From: a virus | Length of the DNA stretch: 50,069 bases | Strand: one strand, 5' to 3' | Virus record (IMG/VR): IMGVR_UViG_3300049489_000098 | Location: 1-50,069 of that record | Shown: one piece after another, positions 6,138 to 50,069 of the stretch | Layout of the letters: each line of letters opens with the position of its first letter | Numbering within the stretch: position 1 is the stretch's first letter | Position numbers and translations under genes: made by a program | Notes under the pieces: generated by a model | Seen by the model: only the letters and a program-made list of their open reading frames with translations | Told to the model about the DNA's origin: nothing | The model's database searches: none

Positions 6138-6142
6138 TCACT

Positions 6143-8547: not shown

Positions 8548-8587
8548 ACTACCTTTACCCTAACTGCCGTCTAGGAGTGTTCACAGG

Positions 8588-10345: not shown

Positions 10346-10373
10346 AGCTTACCATTTTGCGGAGTAATCATTA

Positions 10374-11809: not shown

Positions 11810-11838
11810 GCTCACATGTACACCTATGGTGAGGCACA

Positions 11839-12150: not shown

Positions 12151-12152
12151 TC

Positions 12153-16375: not shown

Positions 16376-16400
16376 CCCACGGTAACACCATTAACACAGC

Positions 16401-21215: not shown

Positions 21216-21239
21216 TAGCCCTAGGTAGGTATCAAGACT

Positions 21240-23372: not shown

Positions 23373-23375
23373 ACC

Positions 23376-23774: not shown

Positions 23775-23802
23775 TGCTAGTGCTTTACAGAGGAGTTGAG
23801 TG

Positions 23803-24716: not shown

Positions 24717-24752
24717 ACCTTCACTAACCACTACACAAGGGAGTATACAACA

Positions 24753-27995: not shown

Positions 27996-28420
27996 CAGAA
28001 CGGCACCTCGTCTGTCCCACCAAACCATCTACTAGGGCGGTCATCCCCCTCCGGATACGCCTTGGCGTAGTGCTCTAGCATGAGCAGATTAGCCATCACG
28101 TGCCCAAGGTGGGGCTTCCCGGACTCGGGATCCATGTCCTCACCTGAGTACCACGCTGACAGGTGACGTAACATACACGCATACGGGATGCTCCAGTTCA
28201 TACCCTTGGCCCAGTTCCACTCGGCGTACTTCCCCGCCCCGTACTCAAGCACATCCGCCCCACTAGTCAACAGATGAAGTGGCACCAAGTCGAGCCTAGT
28301 CTTACCGGCATTAGCGCGTGCACCAGATCCACGCTCGGTAGAGTTTATATCCCCTACCGCGTAGTTAACCAGTCTGTCGGGATTGCTCCAATCGCGAACG
28401 GTATGTTGTGCTGGCGGCAC
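27995..28420 (-). CDS. dATP/dGTP diphosphohydrolase-like protein
   Basis: The region from about 28310 down encodes a clear match to the phage family with Pfam name dGTP_diPhyd_N (formerly DUF5664): GKTRLDLVP, EYGAGKYAEWNWAKGM, LRHLSAWYSGED and DPESGKPHLGHVMANLL. Members hydrolyse or are thought to hydrolyse purine dNTPs, altering the host pool. The start is uncertain: after the endonuclease stop (28354) the frame has no ATG, GTG or TTG before the conserved block. I give the nearest GTG (28420), inside the endonuclease gene, yielding 141 residues. An ATG at 28624 with a good AGGAG would add 68 residues of unconvincing sequence. Confidence 0.8.
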   Translation of the reverse strand: MPPAQHTVRDWSNPDRLVNYAVGDINSTERGSGARANAGKTRLDLVPLHLLTSGADVLEYGAGKYAEWNWAKGMNWSIPYACMLRHLSAWYSGEDMDPESGKPHLGHVMANLLMLEHYAKAYPEGDDRPSRWFGGTDEVPF

Positions 28421-28758
28421 CACATCGAGTACGTTGTATCCGATACCGGGCTGATGCGATTGTCCCGCTGGAACACCATACGAAGATCTACGCCGGGGTT
28501 CTGCTCGATCGCAGACAGGACCTTCGTTCGGTCCTCGGATGTGAACCGTCCCTTGCTCTCCAAAAGTATCCTCGTCCCCGGTATACGGAAATCCGGTGTG
28601 TACCATCGCGGCTTCGGTTGCCATCTAAGTTTCTCCTCTGGTGGTTCGTAATCTAACCTGATCCCCGTTTCCTTGAATGCCCGGTCACTCAGGTACTTCT
28701 CAAACCCTGAGCGAAACCCGGCACGCTTGGCCTCAACTCGCTTCCTGTGACGCGCCAC
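28354..28758 (-). CDS. Endonuclease I, Holliday junction resolvase
   Basis: This is 134 residues from a GTG at 28758, six bases after GGAGG. It is T7 gp3-like. The catalytic residues of the family are visible at nearly the same positions as in T7: E20, D56 in YTPDF, and E67 with K69 in LESKG. The enzyme resolves branched DNA before packaging and helps degrade host DNA. It lies in a block with a T7-like exonuclease and polymerase. It overlaps the membrane protein gene upstream by 26 bases and the phosphohydrolase gene downstream. Confidence 0.9.
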   Translation of the reverse strand: MARHRKRVEAKRAGFRSGFEKYLSDRAFKETGIRLDYEPPEEKLRWQPKPRWYTPDFRIPGTRILLESKGRFTSEDRTKVLSAIEQNPGVDLRMVFQRDNRISPVSDTTYSMWCRQHNIPFAIGAIPTDWLTTR

Positions 28759-29038
28759 AATGACCCTCCAACATAGGCTGCTTAGTGTGGTACCTCTTGT
28801 GCACCAGCATGGCGCACAACGCACCCGCACCAGCAGCGGCCCCTATTGTCAGGGCCAGCGGTAACGTAAACCCCAGCACAGCGACCTTGGCTATTACGTA
28901 CACCTCGGTCAAGGCCAGCCCAAAGCTGGTGGGAAGCACCATCCCGTAGTTATCGAACGCCACATTTCTCTGCTGGTACGCTTTGAGAAAAATGAATCCA
29001 AAGTTCGCTACGGCCACAGTAAGGTACGTCGTTAACAT
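28733..29038 (-). CDS. Small multi-pass membrane protein
   Basis: This is 101 residues from the ATG at 29038, with GGAGG nine bases upstream and a 7-base overlap with the exonuclease stop. Hydrophobic segments at about 3-18, 36-58 and 59-79 predict three membrane helices, with a positively charged HKRYHTK after the last. The size suits a holin-like or anchoring protein, but its place amid recombination genes may point to membrane attachment of the replisome or a host membrane effect. No family is recognised. Confidence 0.65.
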   Translation of the reverse strand: MLTTYLTVAVANFGFIFLKAYQQRNVAFDNYGMVLPTSFGLALTEVYVIAKVAVLGFTLPLALTIGAAAGAGALCAMLVHKRYHTKQPMLEGHCGASQEAS

Positions 29039-29865
29039 GAGTCCGGTACCTCCCACCACTGATCCGGCTCCCGTCGTATCCACAGAAGCCGCCCCATCTC
29101 CGTCATCACCGTTCTCCAGTCGTCTCCGTAGTGCTTCTTGTACGTCTCTGCTACAAGCCGGGGCCAGTCACTCGGGCCACCGTTGGCTAGCACCTTGGCC
29201 GCACCAGCCGGCCCCATACCGGGAATACCTTGGATGTTATCCGTAGAGTCCCCGGTCAGTAGCTGACGCCAAAACGTCTTGTCGGCTTCTTCTGGATCAA
29301 CGTAATAAGCCAAGTTCTTGGCAAAGTTGTAGTGCAGTCCCGGAACCATGTTCAGATCTTTATCTAGCGAAGCTATCACTGATGCTTCCGGGTCCTGCAG
29401 CCACAGCCTGTAGTGGTTGATTCCGATGTAGTCGTCCGCCTCCTCTCCGTCACTTACAGCAGACTTGTATCTAGTCTGCAAATACTCCCGAATAGCCTTC
29501 TCGTGGGTTGGGCGATGTGCAGTATCTCGGTTACCCTTGTACGGCTTGGTCTTGGCCACATGATACCTGAAGTTGTCATCCCCAGATAGGCACACAGTTA
29601 TCTCGTCCCGCGATACCTGCAACGTCTCCATCATGGAGTACATCATCAGCTTGATGGTGTGCAGCGCGTTCTCCAGTGGCTCCACCTCCCTACAAGACTC
29701 AAGTGTAGCGGGGTCTATCATGTGGGTCTGCATGTAGGACTCAGCCTCTTTCTTGTACTGAAAGCGCCGAGGCTTACCGTCAGATCCTGTCAGATAGTAC
29801 GCTGTCTTTTCAGCAGCGAACCCCGCCCGAAACACTACAATATCACCGTCCAACCACACGTGCAT
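29032..29865 (-). CDS. 5'-3' exonuclease, T7 gp6-like
   Basis: The protein has 277 residues. FEN/5'-3' exonuclease motifs are clear: N-terminal WLDGDIVVFRAG with D6 and D8, EEADDYIG (141-148), ASLDKDL (165-171) and LTGDSTDNIQGIPGMGP (203-219), including the helix-hairpin-helix. These bind two metal ions and the 5' DNA flap. In T7 the homologue removes RNA primers and degrades host DNA. It is next to the ssDNA-binding protein and endonuclease I, as expected for a replication-recombination module. Confidence 0.92.
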   Translation of the reverse strand: MHVWLDGDIVVFRAGFAAEKTAYYLTGSDGKPRRFQYKKEAESYMQTHMIDPATLESCREVEPLENALHTIKLMMYSMMETLQVSRDEITVCLSGDDNFRYHVAKTKPYKGNRDTAHRPTHEKAIREYLQTRYKSAVSDGEEADDYIGINHYRLWLQDPEASVIASLDKDLNMVPGLHYNFAKNLAYYVDPEEADKTFWRQLLTGDSTDNIQGIPGMGPAGAAKVLANGGPSDWPRLVAETYKKHYGDDWRTVMTEMGRLLWIRREPDQWWEVPDSC

Positions 29866-29873
29866 GATGTAAA

Positions 29874-30473
29874 TTACTCGTCGTCGTAGTCGGGAGTATC
29901 GTCGCTATCGGCCTCGGTAGGCGTACTGCCCGCCTGCGCAGTATCAGCAAGCAGGTTAGGGGCGTCCATGCGCTTCTTCATGAGCCCAACAGCCACGGTG
30001 TCGATTGCGTCAAGCAATGCATCGAGGACAGCGCCCTTCTTGGTTGGGAGCGTAAGGCCCCCGTTAGCCAACGCAAGCTCCACCACCTTGATAGCCGACT
30101 CCTGCGCACCGCAGTACGTCATGCGTGGGATATCCACGCTCTGATATCGAGCGTCCTTCTCGATGTCTCGGGCCTCCTTAGCTTCCCAGTAAGAGTCCCG
30201 CGAAGCCGCCACTGGTGCGGCATTGCGCGGAGCCGGTGCCCGCTGCACCTCGCCGTCGGCTAGCACGGTAATGGACTTGTAGTCCACGTTGCCCTTTTCG
30301 TCAGAGGCAAACTTGATGGACTTGCCCACTGCAATGCCGAACTTGGCTGGATTAGTCTTTCCGGTACGATACCACGCCTTGTTGCCTTCCAGCAAGAAAG
30401 AGTGAAGCGTTACTGTGCCCTGTGGGCCTTCCCAGTCCTTGGTAGCGAGTCGTTGAACAATGCCTTGTGCCAT
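29874..30473 (-). CDS. ssDNA-binding protein, gp2.5-like
   Basis: The protein has 199 residues. The first 75 residues form an OB-fold-like strand pattern (TVTLHSFLLEGNKAWYRTG), and the middle is helical. The C-terminus is strongly acidic (SDDTPDYDDE), the tail used by phage and bacterial SSBs to recruit polymerase and helicase. It is the first gene after promoter-like element A (30526-30551) and is followed by the exonuclease. It probably coats single strands during replication and recombination. Sequence similarity to a specific family is weak by eye, so the call relies on the tail and the context. Confidence 0.7.
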   Translation of the reverse strand: MAQGIVQRLATKDWEGPQGTVTLHSFLLEGNKAWYRTGKTNPAKFGIAVGKSIKFASDEKGNVDYKSITVLADGEVQRAPAPRNAAPVAASRDSYWEAKEARDIEKDARYQSVDIPRMTYCGAQESAIKVVELALANGGLTLPTKKGAVLDALLDAIDTVAVGLMKKRMDAPNLLADTAQAGSTPTEADSDDTPDYDDE

Positions 30474-30525: not shown

Positions 30526-30551
30526 AACGTTTGAGAACGTGTTTTGTGACA
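30526..30551 (-). promoter_or_regulatory. Promoter-like element A, ECF type
   Basis: On the - strand it reads TGTCAC, 16 bases, CGTT, with conserved AAA after TGTCAC and CTCAAA before CGTT. It is one of three copies in the genome (others at 36100-36125 and 49990-50015), all with the same 16-base spacer. It lies directly after the polymerase stop and 53 bases before the ssDNA-binding gene. I propose it is recognised by the phage sigma factor. Confidence 0.8.
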
Positions 30552-30553: not shown

Positions 30554-32374
30554 TTAATTCACTTGTACTACCTCCCCAGTGCTCAAGTCCTCCTCGTACT
30601 TGACCTCGTTCTTCGCCCCCCAGTGTGTGCCACTGGTGACGCCACACCCCAGCGGAACTATCAACGTAACGCCGTATATGGCTTTCAGGGACGCTTTGGC
30701 GTCCACCACTAGGCACTGCTTGGCCAACACGTGGAACGCCTCTAGCTCGTTCTCAGGAAGCTCAGCGATGATGCTGTCATGCACACTGTTTATCAAGAAC
30801 ATCCTGTAGCCGCCGTCATTGATGCGATGCCACATCCACACAACGGCCAATGGAACTATCTCTCCGGTAGCAAAGCCCTGCACCGGATAGTTGCATATGG
30901 ACGTTGTGTTGTTTATGTACCCCGTAGCACTCATAGTCGTATCGGGCCAGTAAAAGATCAAGCCGTACTCCGTCTCAAGCTTCTTGGTACGTAGTACGGT
31001 GTTGATCCAAGCGTTCTGGGCCTCGGTTATTCCCTTGTAGCGCTTTCGGAAGTACTCGTAATAGGCCATCTCGTCATCTGTGCCCTTCGTGCCGCCGTAT
31101 AGTGGCTTGAACGTGTGAGCCTTGGCCGTCTGCCTATCGCACTTGATTATACCAGCCGTAGCCGTGTGTACATCGACACGATTGGCGATATCCTCCAAGC
31201 CCGTGGCGTCTCGTCCAAGGTGCACCGCAGCGCGGAACTCTAGCTGCGCCTCGTCGGCCTCCCCAATTAGCCACCCCTCTGCCCGGCTCCGAAATAGCCG
31301 CTTATACGCCCGTTGCAGGTTATGCAACTGTACCTTGTAGCGTCTACCAGAGGACGACAGCCGGTGTGTGCGAGTGTTGCTCTGATTGAACGCAGCATAC
31401 AGCACCCCGTTATCGTCACTTGTTACACACTGCCTAAACTTCCTCAAGTAAAAACCAAGGTCGTGTGCGCTGGTCTTGGCTGCCTTGTACAGACGTATAA
31501 AGGTCTGCTGTTTGGCGTTGCGAGGCTTAAGCGCCATGATCGTCGCCGCATCAGTCAGCGGCGCGCCCTTGGGCGTAGTCCTCACACGGCCGTACTTGGT
31601 CAACTGTGGTATACCTAGCGTAGTGTACAGGTACTCCGCCAGTTGCTTGCCGCTGTTGAAGTTGATGCCTCCCGTCATCTCGGCTAGCTTCTTCTCAAGC
31701 CGGTCAAGTTCCTTGGTGGCCTTGGTGTACTCCTCCTCAACACGCTCACTGTCCAAGTACATCCCGTGCCGCTCAATGTCGGCAAGCACTGGGGTAAGCA
31801 GACAGCGAGAGTACACCACTGGCAACAGACGTGTGCCCTTCATATCGGCAAGCTGTTGCTTGTACAGCCTTACCGTAAGGGCTACGTCGAATTCACAGTA
31901 CCGCTCTAGCCAAGACGACGGTATTGCCGCTGGGCTCACGCCAGCCTTAATGAGCCGTGAGACTACAGATTCCTTACCTAGCCTCCATCGGCGCATAGCT
32001 ATGCTGTCTAGACTCAAGTGCTGCATCTGCCACCGATTGCCGCCAATCACGTACTCGGCCAGCATAGTGTCGTACACAAGCACCGTGTGCAAGTCCAGCC
32101 CGCACCGCTCCAGCCACTGCAACTCAAACTTGGCGTTGTGCGCTATCAGAAAGTCTGCCTTGGCTATGTCACTGACAAGCTCCTGTAACTCAAACTCCCC
32201 GGCAAACACAGAGCGTGCCTTTCCATCACTGGTACGCCAGTGAGCGAACACGATCCGGTTATCCTTGTTGAGGGCCGATCCCCTGTCAGTGTTGGTAGTC
32301 TCGAAATCAAGAGCTACCCACGAGCCCGTCCGGTACACCTCAACATCCGGGTGAGTAAGAAACTTGGGCAGCAC
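30554..32374 (-). CDS. DNA polymerase, family A
   Basis: This 606-residue replicative polymerase has 3'-5' proofreading. Exonuclease motifs: ALDFETT (21-27), LIAHNAKFELQWL (near 80) and YCEFDVALTVRLY. Polymerase motif A is EADEAQLEFRA (near 371), motif B RQTAKAHTFKPLYGG (near 414) and motif C NSVHDSIIAEL (near 528). The layout is that of T7 gp5 (704 residues) but shorter; the thioredoxin-binding insertion of T7 is not evident, so processivity may come from another factor. GTG start after GGGGGAG. The gene is in one run with the helicase. Confidence 0.95.
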   Translation of the reverse strand: MLPKFLTHPDVEVYRTGSWVALDFETTNTDRGSALNKDNRIVFAHWRTSDGKARSVFAGEFELQELVSDIAKADFLIAHNAKFELQWLERCGLDLHTVLVYDTMLAEYVIGGNRWQMQHLSLDSIAMRRWRLGKESVVSRLIKAGVSPAAIPSSWLERYCEFDVALTVRLYKQQLADMKGTRLLPVVYSRCLLTPVLADIERHGMYLDSERVEEEYTKATKELDRLEKKLAEMTGGINFNSGKQLAEYLYTTLGIPQLTKYGRVRTTPKGAPLTDAATIMALKPRNAKQQTFIRLYKAAKTSAHDLGFYLRKFRQCVTSDDNGVLYAAFNQSNTRTHRLSSSGRRYKVQLHNLQRAYKRLFRSRAEGWLIGEADEAQLEFRAAVHLGRDATGLEDIANRVDVHTATAGIIKCDRQTAKAHTFKPLYGGTKGTDDEMAYYEYFRKRYKGITEAQNAWINTVLRTKKLETEYGLIFYWPDTTMSATGYINNTTSICNYPVQGFATGEIVPLAVVWMWHRINDGGYRMFLINSVHDSIIAELPENELEAFHVLAKQCLVVDAKASLKAIYGVTLIVPLGCGVTSGTHWGAKNEVKYEEDLSTGEVVQVN

Positions 32375-32377
32375 AGG

Positions 32378-32629
32378 TCACTCCCCCTCACGTGGAACCT
32401 TGTTGATATCCCGCAATAGCAACTCGCCAAGCACGTTAATCTTGTCAGAGAAGCGGTGCAGCACCGACCCAAGCTTTACAGCAGGAAGTCCTGTCATGTC
32501 AATCGGCATGGTAGAGCTACTGTACTGGTAGACGTACTTGCCATCTCTGCTAAGTGGGTGCGCCATGTCCCGGTACGCATTGACGGTGGTAATGGGCACG
32601 CCATTTACGCTAAGCGATAGTGTCAACAT
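32378..32629 (-). CDS. Small protein between helicase and polymerase
   Basis: This is 83 residues, starting 4 bases after the helicase stop (GGGGAGAG before ATG) and ending 4 bases before the polymerase start. It has a beta-rich N-terminal half with a Tyr/Ser cluster and a helical C-terminal half (VLHRFSDKINVLGELLLRDI). No family is recognised. Tight placement between two replisome genes suggests a replisome accessory such as a loader or clamp-like factor, by position only. Confidence 0.65.
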   Translation of the reverse strand: MLTLSLSVNGVPITTVNAYRDMAHPLSRDGKYVYQYSSSTMPIDMTGLPAVKLGSVLHRFSDKINVLGELLLRDINKVPREGE

Positions 32630-32632
32630 CCC

Positions 32633-33850
32633 TCACTCTCCCCTCATTCGGTTATACGCCACCTCTACAGTGACCGGTATAATAGCATGACTGCCGCTAC
32701 GCTTGTTCTTGCACAAGGTGAGCACTCGCCTATTAGCCTCAAGGCTCTGCACGCTAGCCCCGATACCGATCATCACGTCAGCTTGGGCTGGTATGCCCGT
32801 ATTGCTGTAGTCCACGTCCCCCTTATCCAGCACGTCCTTATTGGATGCGCTATCTCCAGCTTGCGTCACGGACAGCACCACCACACGATAGCGCTTGGCT
32901 ATGTTGCGGGCTGCCGTAGCCGCCTTCTCCAGCTTCACAGTATAGTTCTGCTCCCCAAGGTCGAGGTTGCGCAACTGATCCAGTACCACTACGTCCGGCT
33001 TGTACTCACGCACCAGTGACTCTATCACTGGGGGAGACCCCGGGCTCAGTGGCGCAAAGATGATGTTGTCGTAGCCCTTATCCCTAGCTCTAGCCTCAGC
33101 GCGCGCCGGGTCTGCCTCAATCTCCCCTATAGTCATCCCGGATAGCCGCCCCACCGTGCGCATAATCAAGTCCTCTACGGGCTCCTCGTTGCCGACGTAC
33201 AGCACCGTAAGCCCCGCACGCAGGAACCCAGACACAGCGTTAATCACGAACATGGTCTTGCCTATCTCCGGCTGGGCAAAGACAATTACGTGGTGCCCAC
33301 GTCGTAGCCCACCCCGCAAGTGATCGTTAAGCGCCCGAGGCAGTATCGGGATAAGCCCCTCCTCTCGCTCCTTGGCCACTAGCTCCGCAAGGTTAGCGCT
33401 ACGCATAACCGGGATAGCCTTGGCGACCGCATCAGAGCTTGCCGCAGCAGCAGCTACCGACCACCGTTGATAGTCAGCAACAAGGGCGTCTATGTCCGCC
33501 TTTGTGCTTCCCATCAAAGCACTGGCCAGCTTATTCCCCGCTACGTCTTTACGCATGTGCAGCAGGTCAGAGATCACGTTCGGTGGGGATACCGTCTCCC
33601 CCGCCAGCCCCTCTATAAGCTCGCTAAACAGTTTCTTGTGCTTGGGGTTGTTGTACTGTCGCGCAACACTAGCCGCCAAGATACTGCCATCCGTGGACGT
33701 GGCCTCTGGGTCGTTGTTGTAGTACTCCGCTATAGCACCAAGGACAACCCTGCCCTGCTCGCTAAAGTCATCTCCGGCGTTCTCCTTGTGCACGCTCTCC
33801 CACGCCTTGCGGGACTTTATGCACGCAACTAGTACTGATCGTTCACTCAT
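32633..33850 (-). CDS. Replicative DNA helicase, DnaB-like
   Basis: The protein has 405 residues. The RecA-like ATPase core includes Walker A in FAQPEIGKTM (191-200), a YVGNEEP strand (218-224) with the catalytic Glu, and Walker B VVVLDQLRNLD (287-297), followed by VVLSVTQAGD and an arginine-finger region KNKRSGS. An N-terminal helical domain (1-150) matches DnaB-type helicases. The hexamer would unwind DNA ahead of the polymerase. Unlike T7 gp4, it is separate from the primase. The final Gly of the usual Walker A is retained, but the loop is the short QPEIGKT form. Confidence 0.92.
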   Translation of the reverse strand: MSERSVLVACIKSRKAWESVHKENAGDDFSEQGRVVLGAIAEYYNNDPEATSTDGSILAASVARQYNNPKHKKLFSELIEGLAGETVSPPNVISDLLHMRKDVAGNKLASALMGSTKADIDALVADYQRWSVAAAAASSDAVAKAIPVMRSANLAELVAKEREEGLIPILPRALNDHLRGGLRRGHHVIVFAQPEIGKTMFVINAVSGFLRAGLTVLYVGNEEPVEDLIMRTVGRLSGMTIGEIEADPARAEARARDKGYDNIIFAPLSPGSPPVIESLVREYKPDVVVLDQLRNLDLGEQNYTVKLEKAATAARNIAKRYRVVVLSVTQAGDSASNKDVLDKGDVDYSNTGIPAQADVMIGIGASVQSLEANRRVLTLCKNKRSGSHAIIPVTVEVAYNRMRGE

Positions 33851-33861
33851 TCATGCCCCCG

Positions 33862-34023
33862 TTAAATGTCCCACTCCCGCCTAGCGCACCGGCACGCTTC
33901 CTCAATGCTGTCCCCCGCCGCCCTGCACTCAAAGTACGTATCAAGTACCTCATTCCACATGTCCCCGGCATCTCGCTCCAAGTCAGCTAGCAACTGAAGC
34001 TCGTCCCATGCTTGTCTAGTCAT
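33862..34023 (-). CDS. Small helical protein, 53 residues
   Basis: This short reading frame has a good ribosome site (GGGGAGTGAGC before ATG) and fills the space between the HNH nuclease and helicase genes. It is acidic, with Trp at both ends and two Cys (ECRAAGDSIEEACRCARREW). It may be a small helicase regulator or simply an unknown middle protein. The start lies 3 bases past the HNH stop, consistent with coupling. Confidence 0.65.
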   Translation of the reverse strand: MTRQAWDELQLLADLERDAGDMWNEVLDTYFECRAAGDSIEEACRCARREWDI

Positions 34024-34026
34024 AGC

Positions 34027-34308
34027 TCACTCCCCGTAATACTCCCACAAAACTGCATTACATCGTGCGTGCACAGCACCTACTGTTTTATCAGTGTTGT
34101 GGTCATGGTGCAAGTGCACAGGGTGGTCGAAGAAACCTTCTGGGTACAGCTCAGTAGTGACCTTAGTGTATTTGACTTTGTGTGTGGGCGGACCGCTAAG
34201 GTCGTTCTGGCAAAAATAGCACTTACCACCCTGAAGCTCAACATACTTCTCACGAACGGCCCTGCGCTCATGCGGCAGCAATGCTCGGTAGTTAACTGGT
34301 AGATCCAT
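34027..34308 (-). CDS. HNH / endonuclease VII-like nuclease
   Basis: This is 93 residues from the ATG at 34308. CYFCQ (C30, C33) and a later ARCNAVL (C83) form the zinc site, and HLHHDHNTDK (65-74) is the beta-beta-alpha-metal active site. The order C-x2-C, HHDH, CN is that of phage recombination endonuclease VII-type HNH enzymes, which cut branched DNA. It could also be a packaging HNH or homing-type nuclease. It overlaps the upstream gene by 17 bases. It gives the phage a second junction nuclease besides endonuclease I. Confidence 0.8.
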   Translation of the reverse strand: MDLPVNYRALLPHERRAVREKYVELQGGKCYFCQNDLSGPPTHKVKYTKVTTELYPEGFFDHPVHLHHDHNTDKTVGAVHARCNAVLWEYYGE

Positions 34309-34528
34309 AACTGGTAGCCCCGCTGTACTCTCCTCTGAACGTTGCGCACTTAGTGTACGCCCACGACTCGGTCCCACATCCACGAACGTGCCTAAACCGT
34401 TCGGGCAGCTCCCCACGATAGCTTAGGCTCGCCTCAGCCCACGCAGGAATAGACTTCCCGCACCTCCCCCATCCGCTTCTTGGGTTAACGGTGTCCTTCT
34501 CATAGTACACGCAGTCCATACATTGCAT
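34292..34528 (-). CDS. Cys-rich small protein
   Basis: This is 78 residues from the ATG at 34528, chosen because AGGAGG lies five bases upstream; a longer frame overlaps the RNA ligase. Cysteines at about 3, 6, 23, 50 and 60 (MQCMDCVYYEKD, WGRCGKS) suggest a zinc-binding domain of the type seen in many small phage proteins beginning C-x2-C-x-Y. The function is unknown. Confidence 0.6.
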   Translation of the reverse strand: MQCMDCVYYEKDTVNPRSGWGRCGKSIPAWAEASLSYRGELPERFRHVRGCGTESWAYTKCATFRGEYSGATSYGSTS

Positions 34529-34538
34529 ACATTCCTCC

Positions 34539-35186
34539 TTAGTTCTGTAACGTGGACTTAGGTGTCCCATCGTTATCCAGCGTCACCTTGAACAGGTAAT
34601 TACTGGCCACGTGGTACACGATAATTCCTTCTGGATTCATGTACCCCGGTGCAGCCAGACTGCCGCCCTCGCGTAGCCTGCACAGGGCATCCACGATAGC
34701 TGCTGTGTCGTTAACCCCAGAGTACAGCACGGGAACGACTGAGCACGGCGCTGGAGGAGTGCCCTCCCACCGCGTGGTGTTGAACAGCGAGAACCTGCGC
34801 TCGGTTAGCCCGTAGCCTCGTTGGACGCCCCTACCCCACCACTCACCGAAGTGGTGTCCGGGACCGAGTTGTAGTAGCTCGTTGGCGTTGTCATACGCCC
34901 ATGCGGCGAAGCCGAAGTTGTCATTCTCGGGGGTTATCCACCGTGTGCGACTACCTGCGCGTAGCACCCGGACGAAACCGTCCGGACCGAAGCCGTTGTC
35001 CGCGTACACGCTAGTACGGACGGTGGCTACGTGCTCTTGGCGCGATGTGTACTCTTGGTACGGTATGTCCTCGATATACAGTTGAGCGTTAGTTCCGTCC
35101 AGCTTTTCCGTGATGATGATATCACGAAACAGTCGTGGAATCTTCTTGAACGCGCGAAACTCCCCAGTATCGATATTAGTTTTCAT
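34539..35186 (-). CDS. RNA ligase
   Basis: The protein has 215 residues. It carries the nucleotidyltransferase motifs of the RNA_ligase family: motif I EKLDGTNA with K28 as the AMP-accepting Lys, motif III HFGEWWGRG, motif IV PEGIIVYH and motif V LFKVTLDND. It would seal 3'-OH/5'-phosphate breaks in RNA, probably tRNAs cut by host defence nucleases. No polynucleotide kinase gene is seen nearby; the metallophosphoesterase might help process ends. The start overlaps the primase stop by 11 bases, with GGAGG upstream. Confidence 0.9.
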   Translation of the reverse strand: MKTNIDTGEFRAFKKIPRLFRDIIITEKLDGTNAQLYIEDIPYQEYTSRQEHVATVRTSVYADNGFGPDGFVRVLRAGSRTRWITPENDNFGFAAWAYDNANELLQLGPGHHFGEWWGRGVQRGYGLTERRFSLFNTTRWEGTPPAPCSVVPVLYSGVNDTAAIVDALCRLREGGSLAAPGYMNPEGIIVYHVASNYLFKVTLDNDGTPKSTLQN

Positions 35187-35994
35187 CCAACACCTCCGAT
35201 TGAATCAGATCCACAAGCGCCGCCTCCTCCATGTCCTTGAAGTCCGCTCCAAGGAACAGTATGTCAATCCACTCCACCCATCCGTTAAGGTGGTTCCGCA
35301 ACCGCACAGCAGCATCGAACGCATCCCCGTCAAGGGCTATCACCACTCGCTTGAACTTGGCCCCGATGATCGGCAGTTCGGTAAGGTCCAATGACGTACC
35401 GAGCAACGCTATAGCCGGGGCGTACGCCGCCACCCGGACAGCACTGGGAATGTCCTCAACCAGCACCACAGCATCGTCCCACCCGTTCCGTGGGTCACCG
35501 TGTGGTTCAACGTACCACGAACTTTTGGTTCCCTGCTCAAGGAACGTCTCGGCCTTTGGGCTGCGCCCGTTGTACCACCGGACGTGGTGGCCCTTGATTT
35601 CCCCGTTAGATCCAATGATCGGAAACGCGAACCCACCGTCCTCGGTTACTCGGACCCTTGAACGCTCCACGTGATGGTGCCAAAACCCCACCCGGTGGTA
35701 CAAATACTCCTCCTCACTGGAGCACAACGTGAACATGGGCATACGGAACGGCCGTGGTTGCCTCTCAGGCGCAATAGGATCGCCTACAAGCAACGATCGG
35801 TCGTTGGTGAGGGGTAGATATCCCCTATACCCACAAGAGGCTCTAAAGCAATTGTACAGGTAGCCGGTGCCATCTTGGTTCGTTACCCGGAACCGGGTAC
35901 GGCCACAGGCGGGGCACTCGGCAGTGACGGTGGCTCCTACCGGCACGTCCAGCAGAAGCAACTGACTTAACGGTAGTGGTTGGTGAGGCTTCAT
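35176..35994 (-). CDS. DNA primase, zinc-finger plus TOPRIM
   Basis: The protein has 272 residues. The N-terminal zinc finger has C27, C30, C49 and C54 (CPACG ... NCFRASCGYRG), as in T7 gp4 and DnaG-type primases. The TOPRIM domain shows E180 in VLVEDIPSAVR and the LDGDA acidic pair (D222, D224). It makes RNA primers at specific sites for the lagging strand. No helicase domain is fused. It is the first gene after promoter-like element B and starts the replication operon. Confidence 0.88.
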   Translation of the reverse strand: MKPHQPLPLSQLLLLDVPVGATVTAECPACGRTRFRVTNQDGTGYLYNCFRASCGYRGYLPLTNDRSLLVGDPIAPERQPRPFRMPMFTLCSSEEEYLYHRVGFWHHHVERSRVRVTEDGGFAFPIIGSNGEIKGHHVRWYNGRSPKAETFLEQGTKSSWYVEPHGDPRNGWDDAVVLVEDIPSAVRVAAYAPAIALLGTSLDLTELPIIGAKFKRVVIALDGDAFDAAVRLRNHLNGWVEWIDILFLGADFKDMEEAALVDLIQSEVLDEN

Positions 35995-36020: not shown

Positions 36021-36099
36021 GGTTAGTATTATATAATATATAATTATATATATATTATATATAATATATTATATTAAATATAATACTTAGTATTATATA
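36021..36099 (-). repeat. AT-rich leader tract with 34-bp inverted copy of 1-34
   Basis: An almost pure A/T tract lies between promoter-like element B and the primase gene. Positions 36021-36054 are the exact reverse complement of 1-34, ending in the box ATAATACTAACC on the - strand. Spacing from CGTT to that box (about 80 bases) nearly equals the spacing across the joined window ends (about 88). It may be a DNA-unwinding or transcription-enhancing region. Confidence 0.85.
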
Positions 36100-36125
36100 A
36101 ACGTTTCAGAGTGTAGTTTGTGACA
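36100..36125 (-). promoter_or_regulatory. Promoter-like element B, ECF type
   Basis: On the - strand it reads TGTCAC, 16 bases, CGTT, with AAA after TGTCAC and AAA before CGTT, followed by TTATATAATAC. It lies upstream of the primase and the whole replication operon, directly downstream of the sigma factor gene. It is the second of three copies. Confidence 0.82.
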
Positions 36126-36141: not shown

Positions 36142-36170
36142 AAGATTTAATCAAATCTTAATGAAATCTT
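36142..36170 (-). promoter_or_regulatory. AAATCTT half-site cluster after sigma gene
   Basis: AAGATTT (36142-36148) and AAATCTT (36153-36159) form an inverted pair with a four-base gap, and a second AAATCTT follows at 36164-36170 over the sigma gene stop. It could be a weak terminator or a binding site between the sigma gene and element B. Confidence 0.35.
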
Positions 36171-36693
36171 AATAATTCTCAGCCACCCACCGTAGCTCAC
36201 TGTTCGCCCTCGACACCAACTGCCGGGCATTAGCTGTTGTTGTCTTCAGGTGCTCCGCTATTTCCTCAAATGTCCGCCCGTCTCCGGCCATAAAGTACGC
36301 CACAACTTGCGTAATTGGAAGGTCGTTGATGGCCTTCTGTATCGCCGCCCGTTGCTCCTCGGCCTCAAGCACGTCGTCTGGGGAGTCGAGTGACGCGATA
36401 TCCGCACTATCCGCGATCGACTCATCTCCGTCTCCAGTCAGGTCTAGCTCCAGTTGCTGAGCCTGCCGTCTGTTGTTTGCTCGCAACACGTCGATGCTTT
36501 CGTTGGTGGCAAACCTCTTGGCTATTCGCAGCAAGTTGTCAGAAGATCCCTGAAAGTTGTGGTATTTTTGCCACATCTTCACAAGCACGTTCTGTGCAAT
36601 GTCTTCAGCGTCCGCGTCGTGCTTTAGGACATTATACGCCACAGCTTTCGCTGCATCACGGCACGCCCATAACTGATCCTTGCTTAACGTCAT
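36169..36693 (-). CDS. ECF-like RNA polymerase sigma factor
   Basis: This is 174 residues from the ATG at 36693 (overlapping the previous stop as TGATG; a GTG one codon earlier is also possible). Region 2 is clear: DADAEDIAQNVLVKMWQKY, then LRIAKRFATNESIDVLRANN. Region 4 is a helix-turn-helix: LPITQVVAYFMAGDGRTFEEIAEHL followed by TTANARQLVSRANSELRW. Regions 1 and 3 are absent, as in ECF factors. It would direct host RNA polymerase core to phage promoters, most likely the three elements found here. phiEco32 encodes a comparable sigma factor. It is the last gene of the amidoligase operon. Confidence 0.9.
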   Translation of the reverse strand: MTLSKDQLWACRDAAKAVAYNVLKHDADAEDIAQNVLVKMWQKYHNFQGSSDNLLRIAKRFATNESIDVLRANNRRQAQQLELDLTGDGDESIADSADIASLDSPDDVLEAEEQRAAIQKAINDLPITQVVAYFMAGDGRTFEEIAEHLKTTTANARQLVSRANSELRWVAENY

Positions 36694-37475
36694 CACTCAT
36701 GCCCTCCAATCATGCGCCGAAAGGCGCGTATATACCGCTCAAGTGTGGTCCCCACCAGTCCCGGCGCAGTGTTCACCTCAAATACCGTAGCCTGCTGGAT
36801 GTTCTCCGTCCAGCCAACATCAACCGCCCCGAAGTCCAGTCCAATTGCTGCAACTGCGTTAGTAGCCTGAGTTATGACATCCTCTGGAGGAGCAATCCCA
36901 GCCCTGCCGAATACCCACCCGTTGTCATAGTTACGAACCATGTTACGCAGGTCGGGGTCCCCGGTGAATACACCAGAGCGTCGCATCTTTTTCTGAACAT
37001 CGATAACCGTACCGCGAAACACATGAACGCGATACTCGTCCCGTTTCGGAACATACCGCACGTAGAGCCTACACGAATCACTGACATCCTCCGGTCGTTT
37101 ATAAATCTCGATACCACGGCCAGAGGAGGATCGCAACAGTCTGCGCCCAAATACAATCCGCTTTCTGGCCCACCGTTTAGCCACTTCTGGGTCCGTCGTG
37201 AACTTGGGAATCTTGATGCCAGCTGCGCTAAGTACCTCAAACGTCTTGAGCTTGTCTGCAGCGATAGCGACCTTAGCCGGATCATTAAACAGCCAGCCAC
37301 GACCAGCCCACTGACGAGGAAATGCCTTAGAGCGCCCCCAGTTAATCACAACGTCGTCATGTCTAGGAACAAACGCCGTCACCTCGGGATCACGGATGCG
37401 CTTCACACGAAGCCCCCGACTAAGCCCCTTGGCGCTGGCACTAAACGCGTTATACGCGCACAGCCGCTTTCGCAT
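36693..37475 (-). CDS. ATP-grasp peptide ligase
   Basis: This is 260 residues in an ATP-grasp fold related to the RimK/carboxylate-amine ligase group. The central RLLRSSSGRGIEIYK (near 112-126) is the glycine-rich ATP loop, and LYVRYVPKRDEYRVHVFRG (near 137-155) is the following strand pair. GAVDVGW (near 218-224) and FEVNTAPGL (near 233-241) carry the Mg-binding acidic and Asn residues. It would activate a carboxylate as acyl phosphate and join it to an amine. Linkage to a GS-like ligase, amidoligase, glutamine amidotransferase and gamma-glutamylcyclotransferase points to synthesis or modification of a peptide. Confidence 0.85.
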   Translation of the reverse strand: MRKRLCAYNAFSASAKGLSRGLRVKRIRDPEVTAFVPRHDDVVINWGRSKAFPRQWAGRGWLFNDPAKVAIAADKLKTFEVLSAAGIKIPKFTTDPEVAKRWARKRIVFGRRLLRSSSGRGIEIYKRPEDVSDSCRLYVRYVPKRDEYRVHVFRGTVIDVQKKMRRSGVFTGDPDLRNMVRNYDNGWVFGRAGIAPPEDVITQATNAVAAIGLDFGAVDVGWTENIQQATVFEVNTAPGLVGTTLERYIRAFRRMIGGHE

Positions 37476-39009
37476 CTTTATCTAACCTCGCTTTACATGA
37501 AGAACAAACTGGAACTTGACACTGCTGAGCCGACATCCACGACACCGAGAACGCGTCTGACGGCTTTATCATATCACCGCACTCGTAACATCCGTCCATG
37601 GTCAGATTCAGCCACCTCTCCCTAGAGACCTTGGCTCCGTGAGGTCCGGGGTATGTCAACTGCGTAGGCTCCGCCGCAGCACTGACCAACGCCTCAGCAG
37701 CGGAGGTATCGTCCGCATCTGGCGCGTCTACCCCCTCATACAAGAAGTACGCATCCTGCTCGTAGAGATATTCTGGGACGAACTCTACAGGATTTGCGTC
37801 AAACTCCACCACACGCCCTATAACCTCCGTCTCGTACTTGTGAAGTGACCGTACTCCTATTGGGGAGATTACCCAGAACTTTGGCGGGCCCTCGATCACG
37901 TCCCCAGCAGCGTACTTTTTACTGCCGAGGGCCTTGTAGGAGACGTTATATACTACCGCAGGAACCTCAGCGCAGCCGACTACGCCGACTATGCGCGCTA
38001 GTGTTCTGCCTCTATTAGTGACCCGCTCCACCTTCTGCGGAGTAAACAACATGCGGTCTTCCGGAGATAGTGCCTCGTCTTCCAGTTGCTCAACCATAGT
38101 GGGCGGCACTGCGACCGCCTTGTGTACGTACGTCCCCGATGTTTTACGTACAACGTCAGGCTGGGTCGAGGCTACATCCTCAGTAGCCGACTGGGCGGGC
38201 GGTGACGATCCCGGCATTGGCCAAGTCCTAGAGTTGGCGGCACCGTTGTAGCCCATCCAGTATCCGTACCCGCTTGCGGCCTTGGAGTAGGACGCAGACA
38301 CGTCAAGCTTACTCACCTCTGGGTATAGACTATCCATGGTGTAGTGCCACCGCAACAACACTCCCGGGTCAGGCTGAACGATTTTGCTAATGGTTATATT
38401 AAGTCTATCGGTGAGCCACTCCAGCATCTTGGCCTCAGACGCAATGTACACAGAGTCCGTTGAGAACGAGATGCCAAAGTGCAACGGCCTTTGCATATTC
38501 CTTATGATGTTCAGATAGCCGTCTCTGGCATCATACCAACACAGTGCAAACGCACCATTAATCCCCTCGATTATCTCATTAACCGGCTTCTCGACAAGCG
38601 CGTGGGCAATGGCGTGGCTGTCAACGTCAGTTTCTGTAGAAGTAAGCGCCTCCTGATTATGGATTGTGCCATTATGCACGAGAGTGATCGGACCCTCTGT
38701 GAACGGATGTGTGTTTTTGGTGCTCGCCCCTCCCACGGTGGCCGATCTATTATGGCCTATTACGATGGACGATCCTGCCACTCGGTTAAGCGCGTCCTTA
38801 GCCACAGCCTCCTTCAGAAATGTGCTACCGCAACTTGCCATCTTGGCCCAATGTGCACGTGGAGTGGTGGGTGCAGATCTGGGCACCATATAAACCCCCG
38901 TGCCGTCTTTCCCGCGCAGCGTTCCCACCAACAGCGCCTGCTCTACGTACTGCCGCCGCTTCAGCGGATCTGCGCCCGAGGCACTTAGTACCCCTATGAT
39001 TCCACACAT
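37450..39009 (-). CDS. Class II glutamine amidotransferase with C-terminal zinc region
   Basis: The protein has 519 residues. It starts MCGIIGV, giving Cys2 as the N-terminal nucleophile after Met removal. RGKDGTGVY (near 33-41), GHNRSATVG (near 84-92), and TLVHNGTIHN (near 107-116) are the Ntn-type glutaminase signature. This domain releases ammonia from glutamine. After about residue 230 there is a long extension of unknown fold, ending in a zinc-like motif with C474, C477, C502 and C505. The synthase domain of asparagine synthetase is absent, so ammonia is probably handed to a separate ligase of this operon. A copy of the dyad GTTTTACGTACAAC lies inside the gene at 38141. Confidence 0.85.
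   Translation of the reverse strand: MCGIIGVLSASGADPLKRRQYVEQALLVGTLRGKDGTGVYMVPRSAPTTPRAHWAKMASCGSTFLKEAVAKDALNRVAGSSIVIGHNRSATVGGASTKNTHPFTEGPITLVHNGTIHNQEALTSTETDVDSHAIAHALVEKPVNEIIEGINGAFALCWYDARDGYLNIIRNMQRPLHFGISFSTDSVYIASEAKMLEWLTDRLNITISKIVQPDPGVLLRWHYTMDSLYPEVSKLDVSASYSKAASGYGYWMGYNGAANSRTWPMPGSSPPAQSATEDVASTQPDVVRKTSGTYVHKAVAVPPTMVEQLEDEALSPEDRMLFTPQKVERVTNRGRTLARIVGVVGCAEVPAVVYNVSYKALGSKKYAAGDVIEGPPKFWVISPIGVRSLHKYETEVIGRVVEFDANPVEFVPEYLYEQDAYFLYEGVDAPDADDTSAAEALVSAAAEPTQLTYPGPHGAKVSRERWLNLTMDGCYECGDMIKPSDAFSVSWMSAQQCQVPVCSSCKARLDKDAKAAVRV
38141..38154. promoter_or_regulatory. GTTnTACGTAnAAC dyad inside amidotransferase gene
   Basis: The 14-base dyad GTTTTACGTACAAC has flanks such that 38139-38159 is identical to 46296-46316 over 21 bases. 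It lies within coding sequence, so it may be a secondary operator or a recombination hot spot. Confidence 0.5.
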
Positions 39010-39026
39010 GCTCTAACTGTCCTCCA

Positions 39027-39983
39027 TTACCCAACTAAACGATCAAACTTCCAAGGCAGTCGCTTGGCTGCTGCCTCCCTAGCCTCTTCAGAGCCTCTGT
39101 CAGCAGACATCTCGCCACGTAAGTAGAACGGGTTTACACGAGTAGCGGCCAACTTAGCACACAACCTGACGCCCATCTCTCGGCTATCCTCGTCTGTTAA
39201 CAGTAGCTCGTAGCGGGCGCTCAGCCCCGGCACGAGGCGTCGTAATACCGCGTGGTGCCCACAATCCACAAGTTCAGTCATCACCTGTTCGGCCGTGGTG
39301 CCTCTGGAATTCTCTACCAGATCGTAGACAGCAGTTACCCACCGCAGTGACATCTCATGGGATGGCCACAACGGGGCGTGCCGGAACTCTATAGAGCCAA
39401 ATTTGACAATGGCACCTAGGTTAAGCGCGCTGTACTTGGAGAAGTCCCCCCACCCCGATAATGACGTGCCCCTAACTAGCCAGATAAGTCGGTGTACTGC
39501 CCCCGGAGCGCGGTAAAACGGTACACAGAAGATATTCTCCTCCCTTTGAGTTCCGCACACCGCCATCAAGGCGCTCTCTACAACACAATACCCAGCAACG
39601 GCGGCAAGCACCTCCGGTACCGTCAGCCCGAGTACATTGACGTGTACGTGAGTTGATGTGCGTGGGCTCTCCACAAACCCGAAGTGGTCCTTGGTCACAT
39701 AGAACGCGTTCAGCGCCTGCGTAGCATCTGACAGAGCCATTGGGCGCGAGGACACAAACTCAAGCCCTTCATTGCGCAAAGACCCGTCCCTAACCGTCGT
39801 CCACCACGGCACGGGCAGAGCCCCAGCTGCTAGGTATTGCCCGGCCATCTCAACTTCGCACTCAATGCCCACCCGGGTCTCATCCAGCAGTGCTGGATCA
39901 TACCCTCGCCCCTCTGCACCATCCTCGGCGTCATAGGGACCACCATGGTGAAACAGCTCAGCAATCGTGTACGCGTTACTCAT
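39027..39983 (-). CDS. Amidoligase, Amidoligase_2-like
   Basis: The protein has 318 residues. GS-fold amidoligase motifs are visible: VGIECEVEMAG (near 37-47) with paired Glu, VRDGSLRNEGLEFVSSRP (near 63-80), STHVHVNV (near 108-115) and SIEFRHAPL (near 196-204). These bind ATP-Mg and a carboxylate substrate, forming amide bonds. It starts with an ATGA overlap to the gene before it. In phage and bacterial operons such enzymes occur with COOH-NH2 ligases, ATP-grasp and glutamine amidotransferases for making or attaching peptides. The exact substrate cannot be predicted. Confidence 0.85.
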   Translation of the reverse strand: MSNAYTIAELFHHGGPYDAEDGAEGRGYDPALLDETRVGIECEVEMAGQYLAAGALPVPWWTTVRDGSLRNEGLEFVSSRPMALSDATQALNAFYVTKDHFGFVESPRTSTHVHVNVLGLTVPEVLAAVAGYCVVESALMAVCGTQREENIFCVPFYRAPGAVHRLIWLVRGTSLSGWGDFSKYSALNLGAIVKFGSIEFRHAPLWPSHEMSLRWVTAVYDLVENSRGTTAEQVMTELVDCGHHAVLRRLVPGLSARYELLLTDEDSREMGVRLCAKLAATRVNPFYLRGEMSADRGSEEAREAAAKRLPWKFDRLVG

Positions 39984-40636
39984 ACGGTAATCCTTTTAGT
40001 TACTGTCGATTTAGTTATTGGGTCAATCTCAAGATACTCAGGGAAAACAAGCCCAGTGTCAGCCGCCCAGTACCCCACGTGCTCCCCGTCACACCACACA
40101 GACAGCTTACCTCCACCACACACCGTCACAGCCACTCGTGGGGACAGCGCCGCTCCGTGAGCAGGAATCGCCGATGCCCGCGTAAGGCGCTCGACAGCGG
40201 CACCAAATTCCGGGTACTCGGGGCTCCACAACGCTGCGGCAAACGCAACTTGGTAGCGCTCTACAAACCCAGCGCTAGTCAAAGCCTCGCCGGACACGCC
40301 ATCGATGCGCCCCGCCGACAACACGTCTGGTACTGACATTCGTATCACGCTGAAGTTCAATGACCTAGAGTACCGCTTAGCGACTTGGCGTTGTACGTAA
40401 AACACCACTCCCTTCGGGCCGTTAATGTACCCAAGTTTGGGCCAATGCCCAAGAATCATCGCCGATGGGGTTGGTATTTCATCACTGACCCTCATGTTCA
40501 AGGAGCACATCAGGTGCCCGTCGTCCCGTACTCGGCTTGCGTACCACGGACCAGTGGTCCCTAGTATGTGCACCCAAGTGCGAGCATACCATTGACTTAA
40601 GTCGTGCAAGCTGAGGTCGCTAGGTGTAACTTGCAT
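39980..40636 (-). CDS. Amidoligase-cluster protein of unknown function
   Basis: This is 218 residues from the ATG at 40636, with GGAGGA upstream; a longer frame would run over the previous gene. It has an alpha/beta mix with many Tyr and Trp (WYARTWVHILGTTGPWY near the N-terminus) and a beta-rich end (KLSVWCDGEHVGYWAADTG). I do not recognise a family. Coupling by ATGA to the amidoligase suggests a shared pathway, perhaps substrate or acceptor binding. A dyad copy lies at 40390 within it. Confidence 0.7.
   Translation of the reverse strand: MQVTPSDLSLHDLSQWYARTWVHILGTTGPWYASRVRDDGHLMCSLNMRVSDEIPTPSAMILGHWPKLGYINGPKGVVFYVQRQVAKRYSRSLNFSVIRMSVPDVLSAGRIDGVSGEALTSAGFVERYQVAFAAALWSPEYPEFGAAVERLTRASAIPAHGAALSPRVAVTVCGGGKLSVWCDGEHVGYWAADTGLVFPEYLEIDPITKSTVTKRITV
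40390..40403. promoter_or_regulatory. GTTnTACGTAnAAC dyad inside cluster gene
   Basis: GTTGTACGTAAAAC occurs within coding sequence, in the reverse orientation to the 38141 copy but with the same near-palindromic core. Its presence inside genes argues that the motif is actively maintained or that the protein sequence happens to allow it. Confidence 0.45.
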
Positions 40637-41006
40637 AGTCGTCGCTCCTCCATTGACTGTTGTAGCGGGATTGTGTGGATGGCGGGGTCGGCCATTCAGT
40701 ATCCACGGACTTCGGCGCCCTCGTAACCAACGTAAAGTGCCTGTAATCCGAAAATACATCCACTGGCGTCTCGCGAACAGGCGGAGGCGGCAGTGCTACG
40801 GGCGGTGGCGTCACCGGCACGTTTCCGCCATAGACCTCTATGCTGTGTTTGACTACGCGTGCCCGCATATCCCGTACACGAGTGAGCAACTCAGTGTACA
40901 CGTTATGGTACGAGTTGCCAGCAATTATCCAACTAAAGCGCTTAAGTAATCGCATATCCTCCTCACCTAATGGTAACGCCTCTACTTCAGCTATGTACGT
41001 GGGCAT
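40620..41006 (-). CDS. Small protein with proline linker
   Basis: The protein has 128 residues. A helical N-terminal domain (1-55, with LLKRFSWIIAGNSYHNVYTELL) is followed by a Pro/Val-rich linker (65-80) and a polar tail rich in Ser, Tyr and Arg. It starts 4 bases after the cyclotransferase stop and overlaps the next gene by 17 bases. No family is recognised. A flexible tail could be the acceptor of the peptide modification made by this operon, which is speculation. Confidence 0.6.
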   Translation of the reverse strand: MPTYIAEVEALPLGEEDMRLLKRFSWIIAGNSYHNVYTELLTRVRDMRARVVKHSIEVYGGNVPVTPPPVALPPPPVRETPVDVFSDYRHFTLVTRAPKSVDTEWPTPPSTQSRYNSQWRSDDYASYT

Positions 41007-41009
41007 GGT

Positions 41010-41477
41010 TCAGGCCGCCTGTTTGTCTATAGTGTCGCGTAGGGTGCTCATGTACTCAGTTTCCACCTTTGACGGATGCCAGCATTGAACCGGCCCTGAC
41101 ATCATAGTGGAGTCCCGCGCATCTCGCACTGGCAAGAAGTAGCACCACGCCTTTACGGGGGAAGGCAGGCACACATCCACCTTGCTGCGTGTGTAGTAGA
41201 AGGTATTGCCCTCCAGTATGTCAAGCGCCTTCAAAACATTTTCTGATACAAAATACAGCTCGCCCACTATAGCAGCTCGATCATACTTCTGGCTGCGGAT
41301 AAGCCCGGGGTACGGGCCCATATCCATGAGCTTGTACTGCCCCTCGATGTGCGTAGTCTCGTAGAACTGAGCTGTGTTGGGGTCACTGAGCAATCGGTTA
41401 TTGCCGTGCCCAGTTTTGAGAGACCCATACACGAACACAGGGATATTCATAGCCTCGGGTGCACCTTCAGCAATCAT
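41010..41477 (-). CDS. Gamma-glutamylcyclotransferase-like protein
   Basis: The protein has 155 residues of the AIG2/GGCT-type fold. FVYGSLKTGHGNNRLL (near 14-29) is the substrate loop, and ALDILEGNTFYYTR (near 88-101) contains the catalytic Glu followed by the conserved Tyr-x-Arg. Such enzymes cyclise gamma-glutamyl amines to 5-oxoproline or release amino acids. In amidoligase operons it could trim or recycle gamma-glutamyl linkages. The start overlaps the ligase stop as TAATG, with GGAGG seven bases upstream. Confidence 0.88.
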   Translation of the reverse strand: MIAEGAPEAMNIPVFVYGSLKTGHGNNRLLSDPNTAQFYETTHIEGQYKLMDMGPYPGLIRSQKYDRAAIVGELYFVSENVLKALDILEGNTFYYTRSKVDVCLPSPVKAWCYFLPVRDARDSTMMSGPVQCWHPSKVETEYMSTLRDTIDKQAA

Positions 41478-42421
41478 TATGCGACCTCCTCCATAAGCCT
41501 CAAAGAACTATTGTGGTTAAATATATCGTCGATGCGGCGCACAGCGTAGTCATACAAGACTCGCGCACGGTCCACATTTTCGTAGTTAATTGCGTGCCGC
41601 ACCTCCCCCCACGGAATCTCGTTAAACAACTTACGAACTTCAACGGCGGACGCCTGCGTAAGGAACCGCATAGTGTGGAACGCCCATGAGCCCGCCATGT
41701 ACGCGTCGTTCCCACTAACAGTCCACCAGTTACTGAGTACCCTGTACTCGATTCCGTACTTAGTGGGCCGGTACCTGCCAGCCTGTCCGTAGAAGCGGCG
41801 ACGCGCACCTTGCATATCAAACTCAATACTCGGCAACCCAATAAGCACGTCACACATAGCCGCCACGACATAGTGCGGAATGTCCAGTGCATACTTGCCC
41901 TCGACACTCATTCCTAGATGCAGATGTCCTCCAGTAAAGCGCCATTCGTGCGGTTCCCCATAATCCAAGTCGCGAACTACCAAATCCGCTGGAGTTACTT
42001 GCGGGACGGGCTCCCCCTCAGCGTAGGCGTCAAACTCTGGAGAGCACCCAAAGCGGTACGCCGCCGGATACATCGAAAGCTCGTTAGTTGACATCATTAT
42101 ACCCGGCGAGTACCGCAAACCGTGCCCCGGCCGCAGGTCAGCAATCCTCTCCGCCAGTAGTGTGGTGGCTCGTCCTATAGCCGCACTAAATGCAGTGGCA
42201 CTACTGGTTGGTGGGATATTGTACTCAGCCGCTATCCCGTCCTCCTGCACCTTATATCTACTGCGCGCGCCACCAAGCGGGATCGGGCGACTCTTGGTGC
42301 CACCGAGCCAGCCACACACCGGCAAAACCCGCCCGCTTGCTGTGCCCTCAACGAACACCTCCGGGTCAGCCCCAAGTGTACACGTCAATTTCGCGCCATC
42401 GGTCCTTGTAGACTTAGTCAT
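41477..42421 (-). CDS. phiEco32-like COOH-NH2 ligase, type 2
   Basis: The protein has 314 residues. It matches the Pfam family named phage phiEco32-like COOH.NH2 ligase-type 2, a glutamine-synthetase-fold ligase: GADPEVFVE (near 18-26) with Mg-binding acidic residues, DGIAAEYNIPP (near 61-71) and FTGGHLHLGMS (near 163-173), followed by IEYRVLSNWW. It would use ATP to join carboxyl and amine groups. It has an ideal GGAGGAGCT ribosome site and is preceded by a dyad at 42461. With its neighbours it forms the core of the peptide-ligation system. Confidence 0.88.
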   Translation of the reverse strand: MTKSTRTDGAKLTCTLGADPEVFVEGTASGRVLPVCGWLGGTKSRPIPLGGARSRYKVQEDGIAAEYNIPPTSSATAFSAAIGRATTLLAERIADLRPGHGLRYSPGIMMSTNELSMYPAAYRFGCSPEFDAYAEGEPVPQVTPADLVVRDLDYGEPHEWRFTGGHLHLGMSVEGKYALDIPHYVVAAMCDVLIGLPSIEFDMQGARRRFYGQAGRYRPTKYGIEYRVLSNWWTVSGNDAYMAGSWAFHTMRFLTQASAVEVRKLFNEIPWGEVRHAINYENVDRARVLYDYAVRRIDDIFNHNSSLRLMEEVA

Positions 42422-49989: not shown

Positions 49990-50015
49990 TGTCACAAAAC
50001 GCACTCTCAAACGTT
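49990..50015 (+). promoter_or_regulatory. Promoter-like element C, ECF type, late promoter
   Basis: TGTCAC, 16 bases, CGTT, with conserved AAAAC after TGTCAC and CTCAAA before CGTT, reads toward the window end and, once the ends are joined, toward the structural genes at 83. It is the third copy of the element and the only one on the + strand. Confidence 0.82.
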
Positions 50016-50069
50016 ATATATATATAATATATTATATTTATATATTATAATATTTATATAATATTATAT
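50016..50069 (+). repeat. AT tract at the right end, continuing at position 1
   Basis: The last 54 bases are pure A/T and, joined to 1-34, form a tract of about 88 bases between CGTT and the ACTAACC box, like the roughly 80-base tract at 36021-36101. This shows that the sequence is circular or circularly permuted. Confidence 0.75.

Follow-up and report, generated by a model that had tools for sequence, protein, structure and literature searches.

The virus record analysed here, a near-complete-looking stretch of 50,069 bp that we call the window, very probably encodes an ECF-type sigma factor that steers the host core RNA polymerase to exactly three promoters, replacing a phage RNA polymerase. 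This sigma-for-polymerase switch had been put forward in the original prediction and is supported by four results: no phage RNA polymerase gene was found, a relative (G035) carries the sites at orthologous positions, the promoter sequences co-vary with the sigma factor in two sister phages (G053 and G049), and the recognition helix is of ECF41 type. The sequence itself reveals the fold and family of the protein, the sites and where they lie, how they are conserved and how they co-vary with the sigma factor. Coordinates are collected in Table 1.

A predicted ECF-type sigma factor at the end of a presumably early run

Profile matches and a structural model confirm the small sigma factor with regions 2 and 4 only that had been predicted. 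The ORF matches Pfam Sigma70 region 2 with E=4e-10 and NCBIfam sigma70-ECF (TIGR02937) with 70.1 bits, above the cutoff of 42.9, and its match to Pfam region 4 (r4_2) is at threshold (25.6 bits; gathering cutoff 25.7). The match to phrog_1740 has E=3e-18. An AlphaFold2 model (mean pLDDT 90) comprises two helical domains with a loose linker (residues 91–99), and its top matches in Foldseek are ECF factors (SigE, SigH, E. coli sigma-E and Bartonella RpoE). The C-terminus lies about 10 residues past region 4. Homologues also begin at the preferred start codon, and the 5′ end of the ORF and the ATP-grasp gene upstream of it share a few bases. No close relative of the protein was found among sequenced phages.

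The sigma gene is the final gene of a leftward, presumably early run, and promoter 2 lies directly behind it. The cluster of ATP-grasp, GATase, amidoligase, cyclotransferase and COOH.NH2 ligase genes in this run is kept in most relatives and suggests the synthesis of a peptide-like or amide-linked product. Sigma-70-like promoters, as a host sigma factor would use, did not occur above chance in the early arm. A single-subunit RNA polymerase was found neither by a six-frame search nor by PHROG scans of the larger genes; the control set of the six-frame search contains no such gene, and the absence therefore also rests on the PHROG scans.

Table 1. Positions of the sigma gene, predicted promoters, leaders and gene blocks in the window, and of corresponding or similar sites in other genomes
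Feature	Genome	Position	Strand	Remarks
ECF-type sigma factor gene	window	36169..36693	(-)	174 aa, ATG at 36693; profile, model, orthologue
Predicted sigma-dependent promoter 1	window	30526..30551	(-)	between PolA and putative SSB gene; predicted +1 ~30519
Predicted sigma-dependent promoter 2	window	36100..36125	(-)	between sigma and primase; predicted +1 ~36093
Predicted sigma-dependent promoter 3	window	49990..50015	(+)	ahead of late structural block; predicted +1 ~50022
Promoter 2 leader	window	36021..36099	(-)	almost pure A/T; last 34 nt identical to late leader
Promoter 3 leader, part 1	window	50016..50069	(+)	A/T-rich; continues at 1–34 over the record junction
Promoter 3 leader, part 2	window	1..34	(+)	A/T-rich; G035 counterpart uninterrupted
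Promoter 1 block	window	27225..30473	(-)	putative SSB, exonuclease, NTP pyrophosphohydrolase-like, phosphoesterase
Promoter 2 block	window	30554..35994	(-)	primase, RNA ligase-like, DnaB helicase, PolA (PHROG matches)
Promoter 3 late block	window	83..25316	(+)	tail fibre, TerL, head-tail adaptor, major capsid, tail, internal virion protein, endolysin
Upstream run, presumably early	window	36693..42421	(-)	ATP-grasp, GATase, amidoligase, gamma-glutamyl cyclotransferase, COOH.NH2 ligase
Site in sigma/primase gap	G035	46590	(-)	orthologue of promoter 2
Site in PolA/SSB gap	G035	40669	(-)	orthologue of promoter 1
Site at head of late block	G035	8056	(+)	orthologue of promoter 3; precedes homologue of gene 83–808
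Site	G034	5045	(-)	orthologue of promoter 1
Site in PolA/SSB gap	G001	30222	(-)	orthologue of promoter 1
Similar sites (L205 = G033:138000-153850)	G033	145188, 148454, 150025, 152112, 152974	(-)	

Three predicted promoters, each ahead of a gene block

Exact matches to TGTCAC-N16-CGTT occur three times in the 50,069-bp record, each at the place and on the strand originally predicted, and 0 times for the reversed pattern used as a control. The bare 6+4-base core is not enriched in the window when mismatches are allowed. The extended sites have 21–23 of 26 bases in common between each pair; together with conserved bases outside the boxes, this bears out the extra conserved flanks that had been noticed. 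The extra conserved bases are TGTCACAAA, T.AA[AG] before CGTT and, mostly, TATAtARTAC after it, and the inter-box bases are partly conserved among the three sites within one genome. A scan of the whole genome with a matrix built from the sites, which the original prediction had proposed as a check, scored them at 39–41 bits and the next-best place in the window at 10 bits, in agreement with the claim that no further copy exists. An unbiased search of the intergenic DNA for the best triplet of 30-mers ranked the three sites first with 41.4 bits (shuffled intergenic DNA, n=20: 31.2 ± 0.8, maximum 32.6 bits).

The sites were also said to precede and point to gene blocks for replication, ssDNA binding and exonuclease functions, and late structure. 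PHROG matches uphold this for the primase, helicase, PolA, exonuclease and structural genes. The ssDNA-binding identity was not upheld in the same way: gene 29874–30473 has no Pfam or PHROG match and is a likely SSB because it follows PolA and its product has an acidic tail.

Site 3 lies 54 bp from the end of the record. That its late block starts across the junction between record end and record start is supported, because sites 2 and 3 have a 34-nt leader segment in common and the corresponding arrangement in G035 is uninterrupted. Over 80–90 nt the leaders behind promoters 2 and 3 consist almost entirely of A and T, and their final 34 nt are identical; the leaders of G035 are of the same A/T kind. 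A promoter plus an A/T stretch resembles the primary origin of T7, and an origin-like role of the leaders is, by this analogy, only a thought. A structured A/T leader was considered and rejected, as folding was not clearly better than that of shuffles (z −1.5).

Conservation of sigma factor and triplet in close relatives

When viral contigs were scanned with the single sequences of the sigma factor and of the primase, nothing matched, and relatives were obtained via capsid and PolA scans. No sigma factor was found in the capsid-based relatives searched, several of which are fragments. The PolA scan yielded G034 and G035, whose sigma factor is 55% identical to that of the window and is encoded in the same place. 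G035 (50.5 kb) has exactly three sites, all at orthologous positions, and a contig named G001, which breaks off before the sigma region, retains one. A matrix trained on G035 scores the three window sites at 26–28 bits (next 14.7), and a matrix trained on the window scores the three G035 sites at 21–29 bits (next 12.3). Across 2.9 million viral contigs, TGTCACAAA-N11-AACGTTTA was found only in G034 and G035, at three places that are all orthologous, and the full core, among all viral contigs searched, only in the sigma-bearing group, the fragmentary relative G001 and one site of G033.

Sister phages with other sigma factors and other triplets

Several more distant relatives (PolA 38–53% identical) carry a gene of the sigma-70 family in the corresponding region, and the phylogenetic tree did not reveal detectable orthology between these sigma factors and that of the window. 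In G053, whose late arm carries a terminase of another family, exactly three copies of CAGCGTTT-N12-CGTATAATA occur: one lies in the sigma/primase gap, one in the PolA/SSB gap, and one heads the late arm (38.6 bits vs a null maximum of 32.3). The triplet of G049 is TGTnACAAnnnTTTnnCTAAGCTA, with one copy preceding sigma, one preceding the late arm and one downstream of the exonuclease (41.3 bits vs 32.3), so that both triplets exceed the shuffled maximum by 6–9 bits. A matrix scan showed the window motif to be absent from both genomes. Different triplets thus accompany divergent sigma factors at the same locus, which indicates that the promoter sequence changes with the sigma factor; to judge from these sequences, this co-variation argues more strongly than any other result that the phage sigma factor, and not a host factor, reads the sites. 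G036, G041, G055, L306 and L307 yielded no promoter triplet; the best triplets there were palindromes, end repeats or close to the null.

The gap between the ATP-grasp and primase genes could represent an exchangeable sigma slot, in which ECF41-like and other lineages were swapped and the promoters rewritten each time with their positions largely kept, a tentative reading that we rate as somewhat less likely than not. If true, it would offer a natural series of coordinated sigma–promoter rewirings within one phage group.

Probable ECF41-like specificity

ECF41 promoters consist of TGTCACA, a spacer of 16 ± 1 bp and CGTC, and the −35 element is reported to be specific to ECF41 (PMC3426412). The sites of the window and G035 combine a TGTCACA −35 with a CGTT −10 about 16 bp away, within the CGTC/CGTT range of ECF41 targets, and the resemblance to known ECF promoters that had been pointed out thus extends to the −35 box of a particular group. 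The region 4.2 helices read ARQLVSRA (window) and SRQLLSRA (G035) and fit [CS]R[QK]x.SR[AV] (the first position here being A or S); this pattern was read off 8/8 ECF41 alignment rows and occurs in no other bacterial ECF row. Among natural sigma factors in the PDB, the ECF41 factor SigJ is the best match for the C-terminal 63 residues of the window protein, and the tree places the protein adjacent to ECF41 with weak support (70/19). By its sequence, however, the window sigma factor is not an ECF41 member, because it lacks the large C-terminal regulatory extension of that group.

Proposed mechanism and alternative explanations

We propose that the early transcription unit, presumably driven by a host-sigma promoter, ends with expression of the sigma factor. 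We infer that it binds the host core RNA polymerase, and likewise the start sites and the timing. Region 4 would read TGTCACA(AA) at −35 and region 2 CGTT at −10, so that the host enzyme would be redirected to exactly three phage promoters. Promoter 2, just behind the sigma gene, would drive primase, helicase and PolA; promoter 1, behind PolA, the probable SSB, the exonuclease and others; and promoter 3, heading the divergent late block, the structural genes. With these placements every non-early gene would stand behind a sigma-dependent promoter, and the switch would do the job of the T7 phage RNA polymerase. Sister phages have a different sigma factor at this locus, and a different promoter triplet to match it.

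A host ECF41-like sigma factor might instead read the three sites, with the phage protein only competing or serving other promoters. The motif is nearly that of ECF41, and G033, a T4-like 154-kb contig, has five TGTCACA-N15-CGTT sites in a region of small genes, 6–8 nt before ATGs; the genes behind them are possibly leaderless. No ECF sigma factor was found in G033, where a gp55-like protein is present, and other phages may therefore rely on a host ECF41-like factor for reading such sequences. For the window we consider this explanation unlikely: the same triplet occurs with a 55% identical sigma factor but different triplets with divergent ones, the helix of the phage protein itself bears the ECF41-type signature, and the full core has the narrow distribution given above.

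The partial conservation of inter-box bases inside one genome would also suit two other roles of the 26-mer, as an operator bound by a different phage DNA-binding protein or as a T7-type promoter read by a phage RNA polymerase that escaped recognition. Between genomes, however, the middle of the sites diverges and the −35-like and −10-like ends are retained, a spacing of 16 between two boxes suits an ECF promoter, one site lies directly behind the sigma gene, and the genome searches found no RNA polymerase gene; we give this explanation very little weight. Spread by recombination of one intergenic segment with no transcriptional role would account for the leader that sites 2 and 3 have in common, but site 1 is without it, G035 retains the three positions although the flanks diverge, and in G053 these three places are taken by an unrelated motif, which makes this origin barely credible.

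Comparison with known systems

Recognition of the sites by the phage sigma factor with host core enzyme, the reading we prefer, belongs to a class of mechanism that is already known, because phiEco32 gp36 and phage 7-11 gp47 were shown experimentally, in vitro and in vivo, to send host core RNA polymerase to middle and late promoters (PMC8948821); an earlier prediction had been published (PMC4331800). As in those phages, the window combines a phage sigma factor with a few strong predicted middle and late promoters, and no phage RNA polymerase was found. What appears to be new is the phage lineage, the ECF41-like specificity and a position-conserved regulon that changes sequence with the sigma factor.

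Salmonella phage 7-11 is similar in its small sigma factor with regions 2 and 4, its use of host core RNA polymerase, its bipartite late promoters with boxes 16 bp apart, GTAAtg-(16)-aCTA for gp47 (SaPh711_gp47; PMC8948821), and its two divergent arms. It differs in being an 89.9-kb member of Grimontviridae with eight promoters of another sequence and the sigma gene elsewhere, and, despite the phrog_1740 match of the window protein, gp47 resembles it only locally, over 20 aa of region 2. PhiEco32 likewise relies on an ECF-like sigma factor and host core RNA polymerase for its middle and late genes, but gp36 has no recognisable region 4, uses one-element promoters (tAATGTAtA) and works with gp79 (PMC8948821, PMC4331800). 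ECF41 factors such as M. tuberculosis SigJ share the recognition helix signature and the TGTCACA, 16 ± 1, CGT(C/T) promoter (PMC3426412), whereas their large C-terminal regulatory domain and control of a neighbouring COE gene have no counterpart in the phage protein.

By its TerL, head-tail adaptor, capsid and PolA, the phage belongs to the T7 supergroup and comes close to Zobellviridae (SIO1, Lentibacter phage ICBM2, VpV262, ICP2), with which it has in common the structural module (TerL up to 61% identical, adaptor and capsid), two opposed arms and the lack of a detected phage RNA polymerase. An HMM search found no sigma factor in SIO1, ICBM2, T5S1, ctOsX528, ICP2, VpV262 and the examined part of StenR_269, and we therefore no longer regard the switch as common to all Zobellviridae; given that none was found in SIO1, ICBM2, T5S1, ICP2 and VpV262, the switch would belong to a side group. 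For T7-supergroup phages without RNA polymerase, PMC9960094 states only that transcription is regulated differently. Late-gene switching in such phages has not been described, and the window group offers a concrete candidate answer, in which a sigma factor and its promoters are predicted together. A three-site regulon with matched changes would be a good system for studying joint change of regulator and target specificity, and a source of compact sigma–promoter pairs.

Repeats in the early arm

Dispersed palindromes of 14–16 bp are confined to the early arm of the window: CGTAACACGTGTTACG occurs at 44112, 47359, 48180 and 49326, and GTTTTACGTACAACG at 38141, 40389, 42462, 43592, 44105 and 46298. 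They differ in each relative, with GTCATACGTATGAC five times in G035, CTTAGTACGTACTAAG 20 times in G053, CGTTGTACGTACAACG about 13 times in G036 and CCTTAACATGTTAAGG nine times in G041, and by sequence they look like stoperators or partition-type sites. Separately, an 18-bp tandem repeat of about 30 units (44549–45106) lies within a predicted 305-aa minus-strand ORF with matches to phrog_7964 and to collagen/tail-like proteins.
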